A stretch of DNA of 34,980 bases, taken from positions 1 to 34,980 of the IMG/VR virus record IMGVR_UViG_3300025141_000363, one strand, 5' to 3'. The stretch's first letter is position 1; each line of letters begins with the position of its first letter. The DNA comes from a virus. Of this stretch, positions 2,914 through 12,931 are shown piece after piece. Made by a program: the position numbers and the translations under genes. The notes under the pieces were generated by a model. It was not told the origin of the DNA, did not search any database, and worked only from the letters and a program-made list of their open reading frames with translations.

Positions 2914-3380
2914 TGGCATTTAGTTTATCAGATAGAAGTTTATCTCGTCTTCGTGGTGTTCACCCTGATCTGGTCAAGGTGGTGAAGTCTGCGATTGACT
3001 TTACTGATGTAGACTTTGGTGTTGGAATTGGTTTGAGAACCGAGGAAGAGCAAGCTGCTCTTGTTGCCAAGGGCGCATCACAAACCATGAAGAGCAAACA
3101 CTTGCGGCAAGAAGATGGCTTCTGTCATGCCGTTGATCTTTTTGCTTATGTTGGCGGCAGTGTAGATTGGTCGCTGCCTCTCTATGATAATATTGCTGAT
3201 GCAATTAAGAAGGGTGCAATAGCTCACTCAGTTCAGATACGTTGGGGCGCTGCTTGGTCTGTTCCAAATATCATGGAGTGGAATGGAACAATGGAAGAGG
3301 CAATGAACTCTTATATCGACTTGCGCCGTTCTCAAGGTCGCCGCCCCTTTATTGATGGCCCACATTTTGAGTTGATGTAG
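2913..3380 (+). CDS. Endolysin, M15-type L-alanyl-D-glutamate peptidase
   Basis: A 155-aa single-domain enzyme of the peptidase M15 (VanY/T5-endolysin-like) family that cuts peptide stems of peptidoglycan. The Zn-site signature is visible: SKH at 61-63, HAVD at 72-75 and GPHFEL at 149-154, giving likely ligands H63, D75 and H151. WGAAW at 111-115 fits the family's conserved WGG(D/A)W position. A short insertion (LRQEDGFC) separates SKH from HAVD, where many relatives have only LTG. It has no signal peptide, so it needs the holins encoded just upstream. It is the last rightward gene before the convergent early operon. Confidence 0.88.
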   Translation: MAFSLSDRSLSRLRGVHPDLVKVVKSAIDFTDVDFGVGIGLRTEEEQAALVAKGASQTMKSKHLRQEDGFCHAVDLFAYVGGSVDWSLPLYDNIADAIKKGAIAHSVQIRWGAAWSVPNIMEWNGTMEEAMNSYIDLRRSQGRRPFIDGPHFELM

Positions 3381-3381
3381 T

Positions 3382-3621
3382 CTAGTCTTTGCCAAGAAGT
3401 TGTTGCAGCTTTTTATCTTTGAAGCTGACTTTTACTTCTTCTTCTTCTTCTTCTTCGTCGCTAGGCTTTGCTGCTATTAAACCTAGACCTACTATTTCTG
3501 GGTCTGTATCAAAGCAGTCACATACACCAAACACAAAGATTAACAAATCTTTTACAGTCATTTTGTTTGGCAAAGCTCTTAGAGCGTTTTCAAAACACTC
3601 ATGTTTTTGTTCTATGTTCAT
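3382..3621 (-). CDS. Small acidic protein, last gene of the leftward operon; unknown
   Basis: A 79-aa protein that begins MNIEQKHECFENAL and carries a run of seven Glu (about 57-63) encoded by seven GAA codons, followed by a lysine-rich end (FKDKKLQQLLGKD). Its ATG overlaps the upstream repressor-like gene's stop (ATGA), which supports real translation. It ends 2 nt from the convergent endolysin gene. The GAA tract (nt 3435-3456) could vary in length by slippage. I do not recognise the family. Confidence 0.65.
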   Translation of the reverse strand: MNIEQKHECFENALRALPNKMTVKDLLIFVFGVCDCFDTDPEIVGLGLIAAKPSDEEEEEEEVKVSFKDKKLQQLLGKD

Positions 3622-3905
3622 TTTATTTCTCCATTGAAGTGAAAGTAAACGTGGACATCTAAGCGCTGAGTTTTATCGCTACTCTTTGCTTTTTTGTGCT
3701 TAAAGTCTGCACCATAAAATTCGTTTGGATCGACGTTTAGATAATCAGCCATAACTTTAACGGCATGATGCGGTGGGTTTAAAATATCACCCCTTTCATA
3801 TTTAGAAATAAGTGATTGGTTAAGTTCGCAATCATCTGCCATTTGTTTTTGACTAATTCCTTTTGATACCCGAATTTTACGCAGCTTCTTGCCAGAGAAA
3901 TTCAT
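3618..3905 (-). CDS. XRE/Cro-CI-type DNA-binding regulator
   Basis: A 95-aa protein with an HTH_3 domain at residues 4-60: KKLRKIRVSKGISQKQMADD, then a recognition helix NQSLISKYERG and the NPNEFYGADF tail typical of small repressors. A longer open frame exists upstream, but the start at 3905 has GGAG 8 nt before it and begins at the domain boundary, so I chose it. It would bind phage operators. It sits at the end of the early operon, like a late-acting or autoregulating repressor. The C-terminal 30 residues (Lys-rich, then VHVYFHFNG) are unassigned. Confidence 0.85.
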   Translation of the reverse strand: MNFSGKKLRKIRVSKGISQKQMADDCELNQSLISKYERGDILNPPHHAVKVMADYLNVDPNEFYGADFKHKKAKSSDKTQRLDVHVYFHFNGEIK

Positions 3906-3906
3906 T

Positions 3907-4122
3907 TTATTTCTCCAATTCTGTTGGTCTTGCCTTTGGTCTGAGCGACCAGTCTGGTGCAAGCTTTGGTTCTTGTTCGTAGTTGGTGTAGTTTCCTTCT
4001 GCATCTATTCCTACGCACTGCTGCGTTAAGTCTATTATTTCTAATCGACGAACCATATCCATACAGTCATCCCAACTTTCAAAAGGAATTACTGCAAGGA
4101 AAGCGAAGCTAAGACTATTCAT
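3907..4122 (-). CDS. Hypothetical early protein, 71 aa
   Basis: Begins MNSLSFAFLAVIPFESWDDC and ends SLRPKARPTELEK. I chose the ATG at 4122 because AAAGGAG lies 7 nt upstream; the TTG codon before it is less likely. It starts inside the last codons of the HTH gene and its stop nearly abuts the XRE gene start, so it is part of the operon. No motif is recognised. The acidic middle (GIDAEGNYTNYEQEP) and lack of a membrane segment suggest a small soluble protein. Confidence 0.7.
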   Translation of the reverse strand: MNSLSFAFLAVIPFESWDDCMDMVRRLEIIDLTQQCVGIDAEGNYTNYEQEPKLAPDWSLRPKARPTELEK

Positions 4123-4402
4123 CAACCAACTCCTTTAGATTATATCTACTAATAATTTGGCTGACTGCTTGATGCGAGGTGCCGACGACCTCCGCTATGG
4201 CGCGGACTTTCATATCGGACTTCATGCAGAGTAATATTTTTTCTGCTTTCTCAGAGAGCTTTTGCTCTTTGTTGGGCCTACCCCCTTTGTAACCTCCGTC
4301 CCTGCCCTTGTACCCTGCGACAGCGTTGCTACCGCCTATGCGAGAGAGCATCCTTGCGTTCTCGACCTTGGCATAGACCTTCATTTTTTCTAGTTGCGTC
4401 AC
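4115..4402 (-). CDS. Helix-turn-helix protein with Gly/Lys-rich arm
   Basis: A 95-aa protein with a GTG start; AGGAGG is 9 nt upstream, an unusually good ribosome site. The first half is basic and Gly-rich (GYKGRDGGYKGGRPNKEQK), resembling the GRP(x)K DNA-minor-groove arms that precede HTH units of resolvase and homeodomain-like proteins. The second half, MKVRAIAEVVGTSHQAVSQI (about 64-83), reads as a helix-turn-helix with the recognition helix at SHQAVSQIISRY. Probably a DNA-binding regulator; the target is unknown. A 109-nt gap separates it from the preceding small gene. Confidence 0.75.
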   Translation of the reverse strand: MTQLEKMKVYAKVENARMLSRIGGSNAVAGYKGRDGGYKGGRPNKEQKLSEKAEKILLCMKSDMKVRAIAEVVGTSHQAVSQIISRYNLKELVDE

Positions 4403-4511
4403 TTGACTTGTCCTCCTTTGTTTTGTTTACTGGATTTGTGTGAGGCGGCACCTCAGAAACCCACTTTTGCTAGCGTTCGACTGCCTGTTATCGGAAAAGC
4501 AAACCGCCGCT

Positions 4512-4688
4512 TCACACTTTATCTTCGTTCCTTTCAAGATATGCTTTCCAATGCTCCACTGTTTTGCTGTCAGCAATCCAAACAGCATCAATGCTTTGGT
4601 CTATGGCGGTTAACTGTGCAGCTTCAAAATCGCCGTGATCCCCAAGCTCAAAGAACTCACCATTCGATTGAAGGGCAAAATAATTCAT
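4512..4688 (-). CDS. Small 58-aa early protein
   Basis: A short frame that starts ATG at 4688, overlapping the TGA of the upstream gene as ATGA. Translation begins MNYFALQSNGEFFELGDHGD and continues FEAAQLTAIDQSIDAVWIAD, ending in ERNEDKV. The pattern (start MxYF, GEFxELGDHxDF, AVWI, then Trp) resembles small phage proteins I have seen beside HTH and recombination genes. Function unknown. Overlap with its neighbour and the lack of any other gene in this stretch support it. Confidence 0.75.
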   Translation of the reverse strand: MNYFALQSNGEFFELGDHGDFEAAQLTAIDQSIDAVWIADSKTVEHWKAYLERNEDKV

Positions 4689-4885
4689 TCGGTTTCCTCC
4701 ATTTTGTTAGGCCACTTCGCTTTCAAGAATGTTATATCGCTGTGATGCGCAAAGCGTCGAAGCACAGGCTCGTCACACTTTAATATCTTAGCTGCGTCTT
4801 TCATTGTGTAATGAGCAGCAAAGCTTTGAACAAGTTCGATCTTCTCTCGCTTGTGCCTTGCTTTTATTTCTTGCCACGTTTCCAT
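4685..4885 (-). CDS. Small helical protein, possible DNA-binding; 66 aa
   Basis: Starts METWQEIKARHKREKIELV with AAGGAG 6 nt upstream. A longer frame reaching 4942 would run through a terminator hairpin, so I reject that start. The middle (AAHYTMKDAAKILKCDEPVLRRF) looks like a helix-turn-helix of the 'MKDAAKIL' type, found in small phage regulators. It is the first gene after the terminator at 4900-4941, so its transcription depends on readthrough or on a promoter inside that gap. Confidence 0.75.
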   Translation of the reverse strand: METWQEIKARHKREKIELVQSFAAHYTMKDAAKILKCDEPVLRRFAHHSDITFLKAKWPNKMEETE

Positions 4886-4899
4886 GATGTCTCCTTTTG

Positions 4900-4941
4900 A
4901 AAAAAAATGGGCGCTTGGGTGGGTCATTCCCAAAGCGCCCA
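4900..4941 (-). terminator. Rho-independent terminator for leftward transcripts
   Basis: The arms TGGGCGCTT-GGG and CCC-AAAGCGCCCA (4908-4919 and 4929-4941) form a GC-rich stem with one bulge and a short loop. In the leftward direction the stem is followed by eight U residues (complement of A8 at 4900-4907). It lies after the SSB-like gene and before the distal regulator genes. It would cut the early transcript in two, making the downstream regulators dependent on readthrough or antitermination. Confidence 0.85.
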
Positions 4942-4986
4942 AGTCTGCGAGTATTGAGGCAAACTCACTGGGTATATTTTTATATT

Positions 4987-5385
4987 CTAGAACGGAATGT
5001 CATCTTCTGGCAAGGCTTTTGATGGGTCAGGAATCTTTCTTTCCTCAGTGCCACCTTGCTTATCACTGACATTGAAAGACATATAAGGCTTGCCGTCTTT
5101 CATTCTGCGCCAACCTGCAATGCGCTTCTCAAGTGGAGAGTCGATTGCTTGTTTGATTGGGCCAGAATAATCTGGCGCTGCTTCATTGCCTTTCTTATCG
5201 TTCTCAAATAGAACGCCGACTTTCTGAAACACTTCGACAATCTTTCTGCCATCTCGCGTTTCGTCTGAAACCAAGACAACTTTGTTGTCGTTGCCTTCGA
5301 TGTTTACCTTACCTTGCAGGATCATCTTCTGCGTGGGGAAAGGTGTGAAGGCTGCGCCTCGGTTTGTATCGTCATATTCTGCCAT
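4987..5385 (-). CDS. SSB-like protein with acidic DDIPF tail
   Basis: A 132-aa protein. The C-terminus LPEDDIPF matches the acidic tip by which bacterial SSB recruits replication and repair partners (E. coli SSB ends in DDDIPF). The body has a short beta-rich pattern (KVNIEGNDNKVVLVSDETRD) and GWRRMKDGKPYMSFNVSDK. That resembles DUF736/SSB-like OB-fold phage proteins. It would coat single-stranded DNA made by the YqaJ exonuclease and dock host or phage partners through its tail. AGGAG lies 9 nt before the ATG. It follows the annealing-protein gene across a 107-nt structured gap and is followed by a terminator. Confidence 0.65.
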   Translation of the reverse strand: MAEYDDTNRGAAFTPFPTQKMILQGKVNIEGNDNKVVLVSDETRDGRKIVEVFQKVGVLFENDKKGNEAAPDYSGPIKQAIDSPLEKRIAGWRRMKDGKPYMSFNVSDKQGGTEERKIPDPSKALPEDDIPF

Positions 5386-5411
5386 GCTTTTGGCTCCTAG
5401 TTAGTGATTGT

Positions 5412-5488
5412 GGGGCGGCTCTTAGTGGAGAGCTACCGCGCCGCCCCTTGTACGGTTAGTCCAGAGGCAGGAGAACGCCCCTCTCCAC
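5412..5488 (-). ncRNA. Candidate H-type RNA pseudoknot between annealing-protein and SSB genes
   Basis: In the leftward transcript, GUGGAGAG (5488-5481) can pair perfectly with CUCUCCAC (5432-5425). GGGGCGGC (5447-5440) pairs perfectly with GCCGCCCC (5419-5412). The two 8-bp stems are interleaved, which is the definition of an H-type pseudoknot. Stem 1 begins 4 nt after the stop of the annealing-protein gene; stem 2 ends 26 nt before the SSB-like start. There is no U-run, so it is not a simple terminator. Possible roles are translation control of the SSB-like gene, RNA stability or processing. Confidence 0.5.
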
Positions 5489-5492
5489 AAGA

Positions 5493-5936
5493 TTACCACC
5501 CACTACTGGATGAACCACTGTCTGCGGCATACTTATTGCCATCCATTTCTCCTAAGAATACGTCAGCATTACAACCAACGTGCGACAGGGCTTTAGTCAG
5601 ACCATCAGTGACAGCCATCTTGGGGGCATCCTCTGCCATCCGTCCCTTGACTGAATCAAAGAACTTACGACAGCCAGTGAATGGCCCGAATACATTTGAT
5701 GGATTGCCATGCCAGACAGAGACATGAGCAAGCACTGCGCTATCTCCGTTGCTGACATTGACGATCTGTGTTTCACTGTGCCAACCCCATCCTTCACCGA
5801 CAGGGCCGAACTCTTCGGTCATCATTCTGACCTGATATTGTGGGTCAATAGCTGTGAAGCTACGCGCTCCAAAGCTAACCTTCTTGAGATACTTGGGATC
5901 AGACTTTGAAAGCCTGTTCCATATTTCCATAGTCAT
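5493..5936 (-). CDS. Single-strand annealing protein, Sak3/DUF1071-like
   Basis: A 147-aa protein. The core YLKKVSFGARSFTAIDPQYQ, FGPVGEGWGW and AVTDGLTKALSHVGCNADVF fits the phage Rad52-like annealing family (DUF1071/Sak3 type), in which 'AIDPQYQ', 'GxGWGW' and 'DAxTKAL...G..ADVF' are conserved. It would anneal complementary ssDNA during recombination-dependent replication. The upstream YqaJ exonuclease stop overlaps its ATG (ATGA), the usual exonuclease-recombinase pair, and an SSB-like gene follows. The Ser-rich tail (GSSSSGW) is a flexible end. The family is inferred from motif memory, so subtype is less sure than role. Confidence 0.75.
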   Translation of the reverse strand: MTMEIWNRLSKSDPKYLKKVSFGARSFTAIDPQYQVRMMTEEFGPVGEGWGWHSETQIVNVSNGDSAVLAHVSVWHGNPSNVFGPFTGCRKFFDSVKGRMAEDAPKMAVTDGLTKALSHVGCNADVFLGEMDGNKYAADSGSSSSGW

Positions 5937-10993: not shown

Positions 10994-11015
10994 TGTTAAT
11001 AATTATTAATCCATT

Positions 11016-11030
11016 GTGACGTTACGTCAC
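11016..11030. promoter_or_regulatory. GTGACG-N3-CGTCAC palindromic operator, left copy
   Basis: GTGACGTTACGTCAC is a palindrome except for its central base. Related sites at 12439-12453 and 12462-12476 lie on the other side of the divergent region. All three share CGTCAC, and two share both complete arms. The site is 68 nt upstream of the first early gene, so it fits an operator for leftward transcription. Confidence 0.6.
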
Positions 11031-11048
11031 TTTGATAATCGACTAAGT

Positions 11049-11147
11049 TTAGAACCAATAGTCAGCTATCAAAACCACAACGCTCGGCGCTGTAGCTATG
11101 ACCCCCAGAGCAGCAGCCCCTACAACATCTGTTGCATATCTCCACAC
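11049..11147 (-). CDS. Candidate 32-aa membrane peptide
   Basis: GTG at 11147 has GGAGG 8 nt upstream. The product starts MWRYATDVVGAAALGVIATA and ends VLIADYWF: one hydrophobic span flanked by aromatic residues. A longer frame to 11300 would overlap the 139-aa gene and lacks a better start. It lies downstream of the 139-aa gene in the same direction, before the early operator. If real it is a single-pass micropeptide of the inner membrane; coding potential for so short a frame is uncertain. Confidence 0.4.
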   Translation of the reverse strand: MWRYATDVVGAAALGVIATAPSVVVLIADYWF

Positions 11148-11206
11148 TTGCCATACCTCCAAGACGGTGAACAAAGAAAAGGGCGACTGATGCCGCCCCG
11201 ATCTTA

Positions 11207-11626
11207 TCAAGCAATCTTTGCCAATGCCTTTAGCAATTCCATGCGCTTCGGGCTGATTTTCTTGTTGGCGTTGGCAGGTCGGGTATTGCTTGCCTCCCAC
11301 TTTGTCCCTGCAATGCTTTCATAAACCGCCGCATCTGCTTGAGCTAAGATTTCATACATTGGGATCGCAATTGCGCAACGTTCAATGTCATTGTTTGCCT
11401 TTCGAGCTTCGACTACATTGTCTGACTCCGAGGCAACAAGATTATCAGCTAACCGACCTTTCCAGTAAATCACTTGGCGGTGAGAAGCGTAACAGTTCCC
11501 ACTTTGATAAGCTTGCATTGTATAGTCATCTGGAGACTCTCCAAAATGTGATTTATAAAGGTCAACAAAAGCTTTGAATCGCGCATTTGCAGCGTCAAGA
11601 GATTGCTTGTCTATCGTTCTAGTCAT
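11207..11626 (-). CDS. Hypothetical 139-aa protein encoded in the left arm of the inverted repeat
   Basis: Start ATG at 11626 with AGGAGA 6 nt upstream; a frame continuing to 11851 is rejected because it has no ribosome site and reads through the repeat centre. Sequence: MTRTIDKQSLDAANARFKAF at the start, then HRQVIYWKGRLADNLVASES and a basic end (NKKISPKRMELLKALAKIA). It is mostly helical and soluble, with no recognised domain. The whole gene and its leader are mirrored at 11857-12374 by a decayed copy. It is the gene nearest the divergent centre on the early side, a position where phages often keep regulators. Confidence 0.8.
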   Translation of the reverse strand: MTRTIDKQSLDAANARFKAFVDLYKSHFGESPDDYTMQAYQSGNCYASHRQVIYWKGRLADNLVASESDNVVEARKANNDIERCAIAIPMYEILAQADAAVYESIAGTKWEASNTRPANANKKISPKRMELLKALAKIA

Positions 11627-11766
11627 GTCTGGTTCTCCTACCAAAAAAGTTTCAAGATCGAACAGCCACATTTGACTGCTCCACCCCAACAACCATGACT
11701 GCAAACAGCCCCCTTGGGCTGCTTGAAGTACGCAATATCTATATCTCTGCCACCATGTATAAAGTT

Positions 11767-11801
11767 GTGCTATGCCCAAGGAACTTGGAATAGCATAGCA
11801 C
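11767..11801. repeat. Central hairpin of the long inverted repeat
   Basis: GTGCTAT (11767-11773) pairs with ATAGCAC (11795-11801). Inside it CCAAG (11776-11780) pairs with CTTGG (11784-11788) around the 3-nt loop GAA. It marks the symmetry centre of the 1.2-kb inverted repeat. It could extrude as a cruciform or be a scar of the duplication event. Confidence 0.7.
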
Positions 11802-11964
11802 TCATTGCTCAAAGCTAAGAAGACAAGAGTAACCCAACGGCACAAGGCCACAGTGCGATATAGTTATTGCGAACTTTTTGCCGACATGGTTTTGGATCAG
11901 GGGGGGCAGTCAAATGTGGTTGGGCGAGCGCCAGAAAGTTTTGAAGGTAGCTAGAGAAACAGGC

Positions 11965-12374
11965 GTGACTAGATAAGAGAGGCAAGCAAGCTTTTGACCT
12001 GCTGCAGATGTGGCGGTTCACAGGTTTTGTTGAGCTTTATAAATCATATTTTGCGTAACTGTCGTAACTGATGTAACTATACAATCCTTGCAAGCTTATC
12101 AAAGTGGGGGCTGTTTTGCGGATCACTGCAAAGTATGATTTACTGGTTCGGTTAGCTGATGAGCTTGCTTGCATCGGTGGCTGACACTGTGGGCGAGGGT
12201 CGTAGGCAAACACTGACTTCGTTGCGCAGTCCCAATGTTGGAATCTTGGATCAAGCGGCGGTTTGTGTCAGCCTTGCATGGCAATGTGGGTGCTACAATA
12301 ACTGACCTGCCAACGCCAACTGGAAATCACCGCGCATGACATTGCTTTGGGCATGGCGCTTGATAAGATCGGGG
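11965..12374 (+). pseudogene. Decayed inverted copy of the 139-aa gene
   Basis: This stretch is collinear with the 139-aa gene on the opposite strand from its start codon region (GTGACTAG against ATGACTAG) to just past its stop (TTGATAAGATCGGGG in both). The copy has GTG ACT AGA TAA, so it stops after three codons. It carries several small deletions and insertions that break the frame, for example after 12053 and around 12086. No alternative long frame replaces it. It explains most of what would otherwise be a 900-bp empty region between early and late genes. It is either a dead duplicate or sequence kept for a non-coding reason. Confidence 0.8.
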
Positions 12375-12438
12375 TGGTATCTGTTGACCTTTGCGGTGAT
12401 TTAGTCTGTCAACCCATCTGGCAACCTTCAATACCGTT

Positions 12439-12453
12439 GTAACGCCACGTCAC
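12439..12453. promoter_or_regulatory. GTGACG-N3-CGTCAC-type operator, right copy 1 (imperfect)
   Basis: GTAACGCCACGTCAC has the full right arm and one mismatch in the left arm. It sits 23 bp (centre to centre, about two helix turns) from the next site, so a protein could bind both on one DNA face. Confidence 0.5.
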
Positions 12454-12461
12454 TTGGCAAG

Positions 12462-12476
12462 GTGACGCTACGTCAC
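12462..12476. promoter_or_regulatory. GTGACG-N3-CGTCAC operator, right copy 2
   Basis: GTGACGCTACGTCAC has both perfect 6-bp arms. It ends 3 nt before a TTGACA hexamer, so its protein could activate or block that promoter. The flanking CAAG/CAAA bases also match the left copy at 11016-11030. Confidence 0.6.
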
Positions 12477-12479
12477 TTA

Positions 12480-12510
12480 TTGACAGACTTTGCAGTCAAC
12501 GTGCTAAATG
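12480..12510 (+). promoter_or_regulatory. Candidate sigma70-type promoter for late rightward genes
   Basis: A perfect -35 TTGACA at 12480-12485 and a -10-like TAAATG at 12505-12510 are separated by 19 nt. The spacing is long and the -10 weak, which fits a promoter that needs activation by a protein bound at the operators just upstream. It would drive the small terminase gene at 12551. Confidence 0.5.
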
Positions 12511-12532
12511 GGGGGAGAGAGGGAGAGGGGGG
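12510..12532 (+). other. 23-nt purine-only tract before small terminase
   Basis: Only G and A over 23 nt, with a G6 run at each end and a nearly mirror-symmetric centre. It lies in the 5' leader of the small terminase gene. G6-T-G6-A5 (12957-12974) lies just after that gene. Such tracts can form triplex or quadruplex structures, or mark a packaging site, but no function is shown. Confidence 0.5.
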
Positions 12533-12550
12533 CAACAGTAGGATACCACA

Positions 12551-12931
12551 ATGAATGACGTTTCTAAATCTCGAAAGTTGACTGCAAAACAGATGGCTCT
12601 TGTAGACACCATTGTAGCAAATGGCTGCTCCATCAAGGATGCTGCTCCAATAGCAGGTTATGCAGTTGGCGAATCTGGAAGGGTGACTGCAACCAAGACT
12701 ATGAAGTTGCCTCATGTGCAGCAGTACATGATGGAAAGGATGAATGAGGAGTTTGGATTATCTGCTACTATCGCTGCAAGACAACTCCGTACCCTAGCTT
12801 CTGGGGCTAAATCTGAGTATGTCCAGTTAGAGGCATCGAAGGATTTACTAGACCGCGCAGGGTATAAACCGATTGATCGCAGCCAAGTGCAGGTTGCAGG
12901 GGACATACGAGTCTCAATCGACCTAGGGTAA
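12551..12931 (+). CDS. Terminase small subunit
   Basis: A 126-aa protein. The N-terminal KLTAKQMALVDTIVANGCSI and DAAPIAGYAVGESGRVTATK form the HTH of the terminase small-subunit family (pattern 'T.KQ..lv..i..g.s...AA..AGYa'). The C-terminus (VQVAGDIRVSIDLG) is typical of the part that contacts the large subunit. It would bind the packaging site and regulate the ATPase. AGGA is 7 nt before the ATG. It is the first rightward late gene; the large subunit is separated from it by ten tiny genes, a wider gap than in most phages. Confidence 0.8.
   Translation: MNDVSKSRKLTAKQMALVDTIVANGCSIKDAAPIAGYAVGESGRVTATKTMKLPHVQQYMMERMNEEFGLSATIAARQLRTLASGAKSEYVQLEASKDLLDRAGYKPIDRSQVQVAGDIRVSIDLG

Follow-up and report, generated by a model that had tools for sequence, protein, structure and literature searches.

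The window, by which we mean the entire virus record of 34,980 bases analyzed here, contains early genes that run leftward from about 10.9 kb and late genes that run rightward from the gene for the terminase small subunit (TerS) at 12551. Between the two sets lies an inverted repeat (Table 1). When the reverse complement of its left arm was locally aligned with the right arm, we obtained one single collinear match, in which 425 of 508 aligned bases are identical (83.7%, indels additional). The score of this alignment is 389, compared with a best score of 31 among 100 shuffles, and a blastn search with the region as query against the genome itself returned a 72% match over about 510-520 nt (E 6e-69). 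An inverted repeat at this position, as proposed in a preliminary description of the DNA, is thus confirmed, and the individual matching blocks named there fall within the repeats detected by a repeat search. Also as described, the left arm encodes an intact 139-aa ORF, whereas the right arm carries the same gene broken by an early stop and by indels; the copied start reads GTG ACT AGA TAA, with a stop three codons past it. The homology reaches into the leader, as the arm alignment bears out. Left-only leader hairpins analogous to CAAGCAGCCCAAGGGGGCTG are present in two further groups.

The perfect hairpin at the center of the repeat, where the arms were thought to meet, is present but is not an essential part of the element, since 39 nt at the apex (11768-11806), including most of this hairpin, are missing from two near-identical contigs (L004 and L005). 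A chimeric assembly join had been raised as a possible origin of the symmetry. It is excluded by the same two contigs, which were assembled independently from other samples and, at about 95-97% identity, span the junction together with the two arms. GTGACG...CGTCAC-type palindromes, reported to lie just outside both arms, were found at one position on the left and two on the right, and a pattern related to the right-side palindromes recurs in 17 of 35 loci. The operators and the late promoter sit outside the right arm; that the right-side palindromes, the TTGACA element, and the G-run tract follow downstream of it places the repeat at the entry to the late operon. Tracts of the GGGGGGAGAGAGGGAGAGGGGGG kind were found in 31 of 35 deduplicated loci at 8-218 nt ahead of TerS, a range of distances that argues for more than a ribosome-binding site, and they have G-quadruplex or triplex potential. 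The notion that the interval between the arms represents a conserved divergent control region holds only partly, as the apex loop of one locus (L061) measures about 7 nt and leaves no space for two promoters.

Table 1. Features of the inverted repeat and its flanks (positions in the window)
Feature	Position	Strand	Remarks
Palindromic operator-like site	11011-11032		Left of left arm, upstream of early operon
Left arm: leader, entire 139-aa gene, and terminator	11178-11745	-	Alignment, blastn; retained in L004/L005
Intrinsic-terminator-like hairpin, end of 139-aa gene	11180-11199	-	Degenerate copy in right arm
139-aa gene, intact ORF	11207-11626	-	Very diverse phage family, C-terminal motif TGxxWxP
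GC-rich small leader hairpin CAAGCAGCCCAAGGGGGCTG	11706-11725	-	Cleanly absent from right arm
Apex between arms	11746-11856		Contains perfect hairpin 11767-11801
Right arm: inverted copy of leader and gene, non-coding	11857-12392	+	Alignment, blastn; many indels
Proposed late-sense hairpin RNA	11178-12392	+	Predicted fold -670 kcal/mol for plus versus -564 for minus strand
Two palindromic operator-like sites	12434-12478		Right of right arm; 12434-12455 and 12457-12478
TTGACA, putative -35 element of late promoter	12480-12485	+	Upstream of TerS in 28/35 loci
Near-invariant polypurine/G-run tract GGGGGGAGAGAGGGAGAGGGGGG	12510-12532	+	Between late promoter and TerS
Terminase small subunit (TerS), first late gene	12551-12931	+	

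The protein encoded in the left arm belongs to a very diverse family. Single-linkage clustering by blastp places 27 left-arm genes in one family with a TGxxWxP-like motif at the C terminus, and identities to the protein of the window are as low as 14%. Pfam, PHROGs, PADLOC, and the PDB provided no assignment for this family. Twelve diverse members, when aligned, were too divergent for a contig search and were divided into two sets (A2 and A3). Structure prediction from a family alignment suggests a two-helix coiled coil for a homolog (L103, pLDDT 86), a single-sequence prediction was uninformative (pLDDT 44), and a Foldseek search with the predicted structure returned no match at E<=0.001. Directly past the terminator of the 139-aa gene, the tail of an ORF at 11049-11175 contains a transmembrane-like stretch, and L171 likewise has a small membrane-like ORF after the gene.

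We compared the window to 138 loci, nearly all of which had been retrieved by their TerS protein or by the left-arm gene family and not via the repeat. An inverted copy of the locus' own gene, located between this gene and the TerS gene, is found in 116 of the 138 at z>=7, and most of the remaining loci score between z 4 and 7; these loci are metagenomic and share ancestry despite deduplication. Clear failures are contigs truncated at an edge (L098, L122) and loci whose genes stand far from the main family (L042, L047, L070). The repeats come in two size classes, the right arm representing either the whole gene or the leader, the start, and a part of the gene (mostly 8-60%), with detection of the short class depending on gapped local alignment. 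The start codon lies within the left arm in 38 of 40 deduplicated loci. Wherever the copied start could be mapped, the copied frame closes within 42 codons, and the copy is non-coding in every right arm translated. The earlier proposal that a live gene was duplicated in inverted orientation and that its non-coding copy is kept for a role in cis, for example as RNA that pairs across the arms, is thus supported and can be extended to a whole phage group. A long inverted repeat is unstable and, as a rule, soon lost; this large group of mostly uncultured marine phages nonetheless keeps one beside its packaging genes, where the copy has kept pace with a fast-evolving gene across deep divergence.

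One relative is available in culture. The large terminase of the window is 65% identical to that of Pelagibacter phage EXVC031P (record OQ414635; host Candidatus Pelagibacter HTCC1062), whose genome (L088) has an inverted repeat at about 11942-12635 (blastn E 1e-52), located between TerS and a 147-aa gene that shares the C-terminal motif. The arms of this repeat differ mainly by indels, and neither strand polarity (class 8:6 overall) nor a difference in fold energy between the two strands was found. An open-access literature search on the isolate yielded nothing relevant. With the same locus present in a cultured phage, a regulatory role and the choice between RNA and DNA discussed below are directly testable. 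On the TerS side, the blastn match in EXVC031P overlaps the coding sequence of TerS by about 95 nt.

We investigated the rate at which the right arm evolves. A functionless pseudogene copy, which the preliminary description had considered to be possibly decaying, should diverge at the neutral rate, and stops and indels are indeed present in every right arm checked. However, of 36 ortholog pairs compared, most show less divergence in the right arm than at the fourfold sites of the adjacent gene or of TerS (0.10 versus 0.45 in L142/L147, 0.08 versus 0.39 in L113/L118, and 0.20 versus 0.31 in L170/L173), with several close pairs showing similar values, and the copy is kept across the group. Decay is thus extremely unlikely, and judged by these substitution patterns, the right arm is probably a functional non-coding element and not a dying pseudogene.

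The two arms are more alike within one genome than between genomes, despite the shared gene family. In four-way alignments of 14 ortholog pairs, we found 148 concerted columns, in which both arms had changed together, versus 19 columns of the cross pattern. The concerted columns are mostly clustered, forming fewer runs than expected, a sign of short-patch copying, for example by template switching; part of the identity between arms thus stems from copying rather than from selection. Dating the duplication as long ago by the divergence of the arms is misleading, because they have been partly homogenized within each genome. Quasi-palindromes are comparable to our locus in that they are imperfect inverted repeats, whose arms are known to be homogenized in short patches by template switching (PMC8604942, PMC3820800). 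The clustering of concerted sites would therefore be compatible with a locus in which template switching homogenizes the arms, the hairpin has no function, and selection merely disrupts a hairpin in the gene's own mRNA. Yet a useless copy should vanish from a 35-kb genome, and the known quasi-palindromes are mutational hotspots without conserved function, whereas the phage locus shows a strand-polar constraint across the group.

This constraint is apparent from the mismatches between the arms. A G.U test over all mismatches is confounded by a G+T shift that is present also in transversions, and it was replaced by an analysis of isolated mismatches (three matched bases on each side), with polarized neutral rates and tests in both arms. 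Reading from left to right arm in gene sense, the isolated transitions in 40 deduplicated loci are A>G 76, C>T 50, G>A 4, and T>C 4, and the isolated transversions are A>T 39, A>C 32, C>G 20, G>T 17, C>A 14, T>G 13, T>A 11, and G>C 4. A>G and C>T changes together outnumber G>A and T>C changes by 126 to 8, a ratio of 15.8 compared with 1.35 expected from polarized substitution rates in same-strand late genes; A>T and C>G outnumber T>A and G>C by 59 to 15 (observed 3.9, expected 1.24). A mutation bias of the plus strand is ruled out, as the late-gene rates predict just 1.35:1, and 126:8 is likewise far from the absence of polarity beyond neutral rates that characterizes a purely mutational quasi-palindrome. 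By locus, the sign of the polarity is positive in 36 cases, negative in none, and tied in 4, and the polarity hardly differs between codon positions. In a plus-strand hairpin, A>G and C>T correspond to U.G and G.U pairs, and in a minus-strand hairpin to A.C mismatches; their excess is what a need for G.U-tolerant pairing in the late-sense strand would produce. We also considered a diversity-generating retroelement and rejected it, as no reverse transcriptase is present among the window genes examined, and C is altered as well as A.

Changes between orthologs that affect a single arm have a ratio of 60:8 in the right, non-coding arm and of 26:5 in the left, coding arm. Wobble-compatible changes accumulate in the right arm at 0.11-0.14 per site, with a fourfold transition rate of 0.13-0.16 and a value of 0.06 for the opposite class. 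Selection that disrupts gene-sense pairing would predict an identical polarity, but as wobble-compatible changes occur near the fourfold rate and all others are depleted, it appears that selection maintains late-sense pairing and does not act to disrupt gene-sense pairing. We thus regard a locus without hairpin function as quite unlikely.

Late-sense RNA is predicted to be more stable than gene-sense RNA in 39 of 40 loci, compared with 19 of 35 for neighboring control regions. An alignment of six relatives (L170-L175) folds into one long hairpin with 383 predicted pairs, 60 of which have compensatory double changes. Rfam covariance models gave no match in the window; the phage-associated RNAs in Rfam are also large and structured, and here one long hairpin spans a coding gene. 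At the level of sequence comparison, these findings together show a conserved arrangement, a non-coding copy, slower-than-synonymous and concerted evolution, and strand-polar pairing. We infer that the single strand concerned is RNA. The ranking of tolerated mismatches (U.G and G.U, then U.U and U.C, rarely C.A, A.C, and C.C) looks to us more like RNA than like DNA, which is no proof of its RNA nature, since DNA hairpins tolerate wobble-type mismatches too.

The main rival to a hairpin RNA is a hairpin of single-stranded DNA, formed by the plus strand as lagging-strand template during rightward replication and acting in priming (as in the single-strand origins of rolling-circle plasmids), origin firing, or packaging. 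Such a structure would require no promoter, and the conserved G-run tract adjoins it. In addition, the plus strand has an excess of G+T at third positions, whose sign does not differ between the leftward early genes and the rightward late genes (3382-31927), which suggests unidirectional rightward replication, as a DNA hairpin of this type would have it. However, U.C and C.U are tolerated at least as often as G.A, for which RNA in our judgment provides the better fit, and an origin or packaging hairpin need not track a fast-evolving coding gene. We consider a DNA hairpin rather unlikely.

Alternatively, the leader may be the relevant portion of the copy, providing a second early leader (an antitermination or RNA-protein binding site) ahead of the late operon, with the coding part as a passenger. 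The leader proximal to the center is retained in all groups and the outer part is truncated in many loci, and a TTGC(G/A)A motif is located close to the apex in 35 of 40 right arms. The coding-derived parts of the arms, however, have a polarity equal to or above that of the leader, and the strand-polar pairing between the arms would be left unexplained. A duplicated leader is thus very unlikely to be the explanation.

In our preferred model, to which we give about an even chance, the right arm, a partial or full inverted copy of the gene's leader, ribosome-binding site, and coding sequence, is functional and is kept by each phage lineage competent to pair with the left arm within a plus-strand single strand, and the resulting hairpin RNA controls the gene. 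A rightward transcript would first be antisense to the gene, then continue into the mimic copy, and fold into a hairpin of about 0.25-1.3 kb. The antisense half might silence the mRNA of the gene, and the imperfect right-arm copy could act as a built-in competitor or lid, which the perfectly matching mRNA would displace. Shut-off of the 139-aa gene may in this way be tied to the onset of late transcription. Matching changes would be provided by short-patch template switching between the arms, and selection would purge changes that break late-sense pairing. The role of the right arm in silencing is speculative, because late-sense RNA is already antisense to the gene without it. Scanning the plus strand just left of the left arm for promoters revealed nothing conserved, and this result, like the missing polarity in EXVC031P, counts against the model. 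More tentatively, and with a probability we place on the doubtful side, the gene would be permanently paired with its inverted copy, and a strand-specific hairpin RNA would sense or silence its mRNA and gate the early-to-late switch outside eukaryotic RNAi. If true, this would be a hairpin-RNA circuit that arose by inverted duplication beyond the reach of eukaryotic RNAi, with a hairpin of up to about 1.3 kb. The locus may be regarded as a natural record, written in the sequence, of selection that favors base pairing in one of the two strands.

We compared the locus to known systems. Cis-encoded antisense RNAs of phages and of type I toxin-antitoxin systems are complementary to the ribosome-binding site of a small gene and to its 5' region. 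They pair directly with the mRNA and lack the second, sense-like copy present in the phage locus, and we know of none that forms a 0.25-1.3 kb hairpin evolving in step with its target. Rolling-circle plasmids have single-strand origins that are strand-specific, imperfect, non-coding hairpins but, unlike the phage locus, are much shorter and do not represent a gene copy. No comparable phage or replication system was found in a limited open-access literature search, and to our knowledge, no phage system of this design has been described. The closest idea is the inverted-duplication model for eukaryotic MIRNA and hpRNA genes, in which the arms derive from the target gene (PMC3237417), as do the arms here. 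Plant MIRNA and animal hpRNA genes resemble the phage locus in that a gene and its inverted copy yield a hairpin RNA complementary to the gene. Machinery and layout differ: the eukaryotic RNAs undergo Dicer-type RNAi processing, whereas no processing machinery is known for the phage locus, where the target itself forms one arm and the copy stays adjacent.

L017 has a different cassette of 2.8 kb with other ORFs (about 3110-5887) between early operator and TerS promoter, so that this slot is a variable region. In one subgroup (L018, L032, L020, L031, and L029), a second palindrome-like element, AGGTAGTATGATACCT, is located upstream of TerS just left of the GTGACG operator, as are repeated GTAGTATG motifs.
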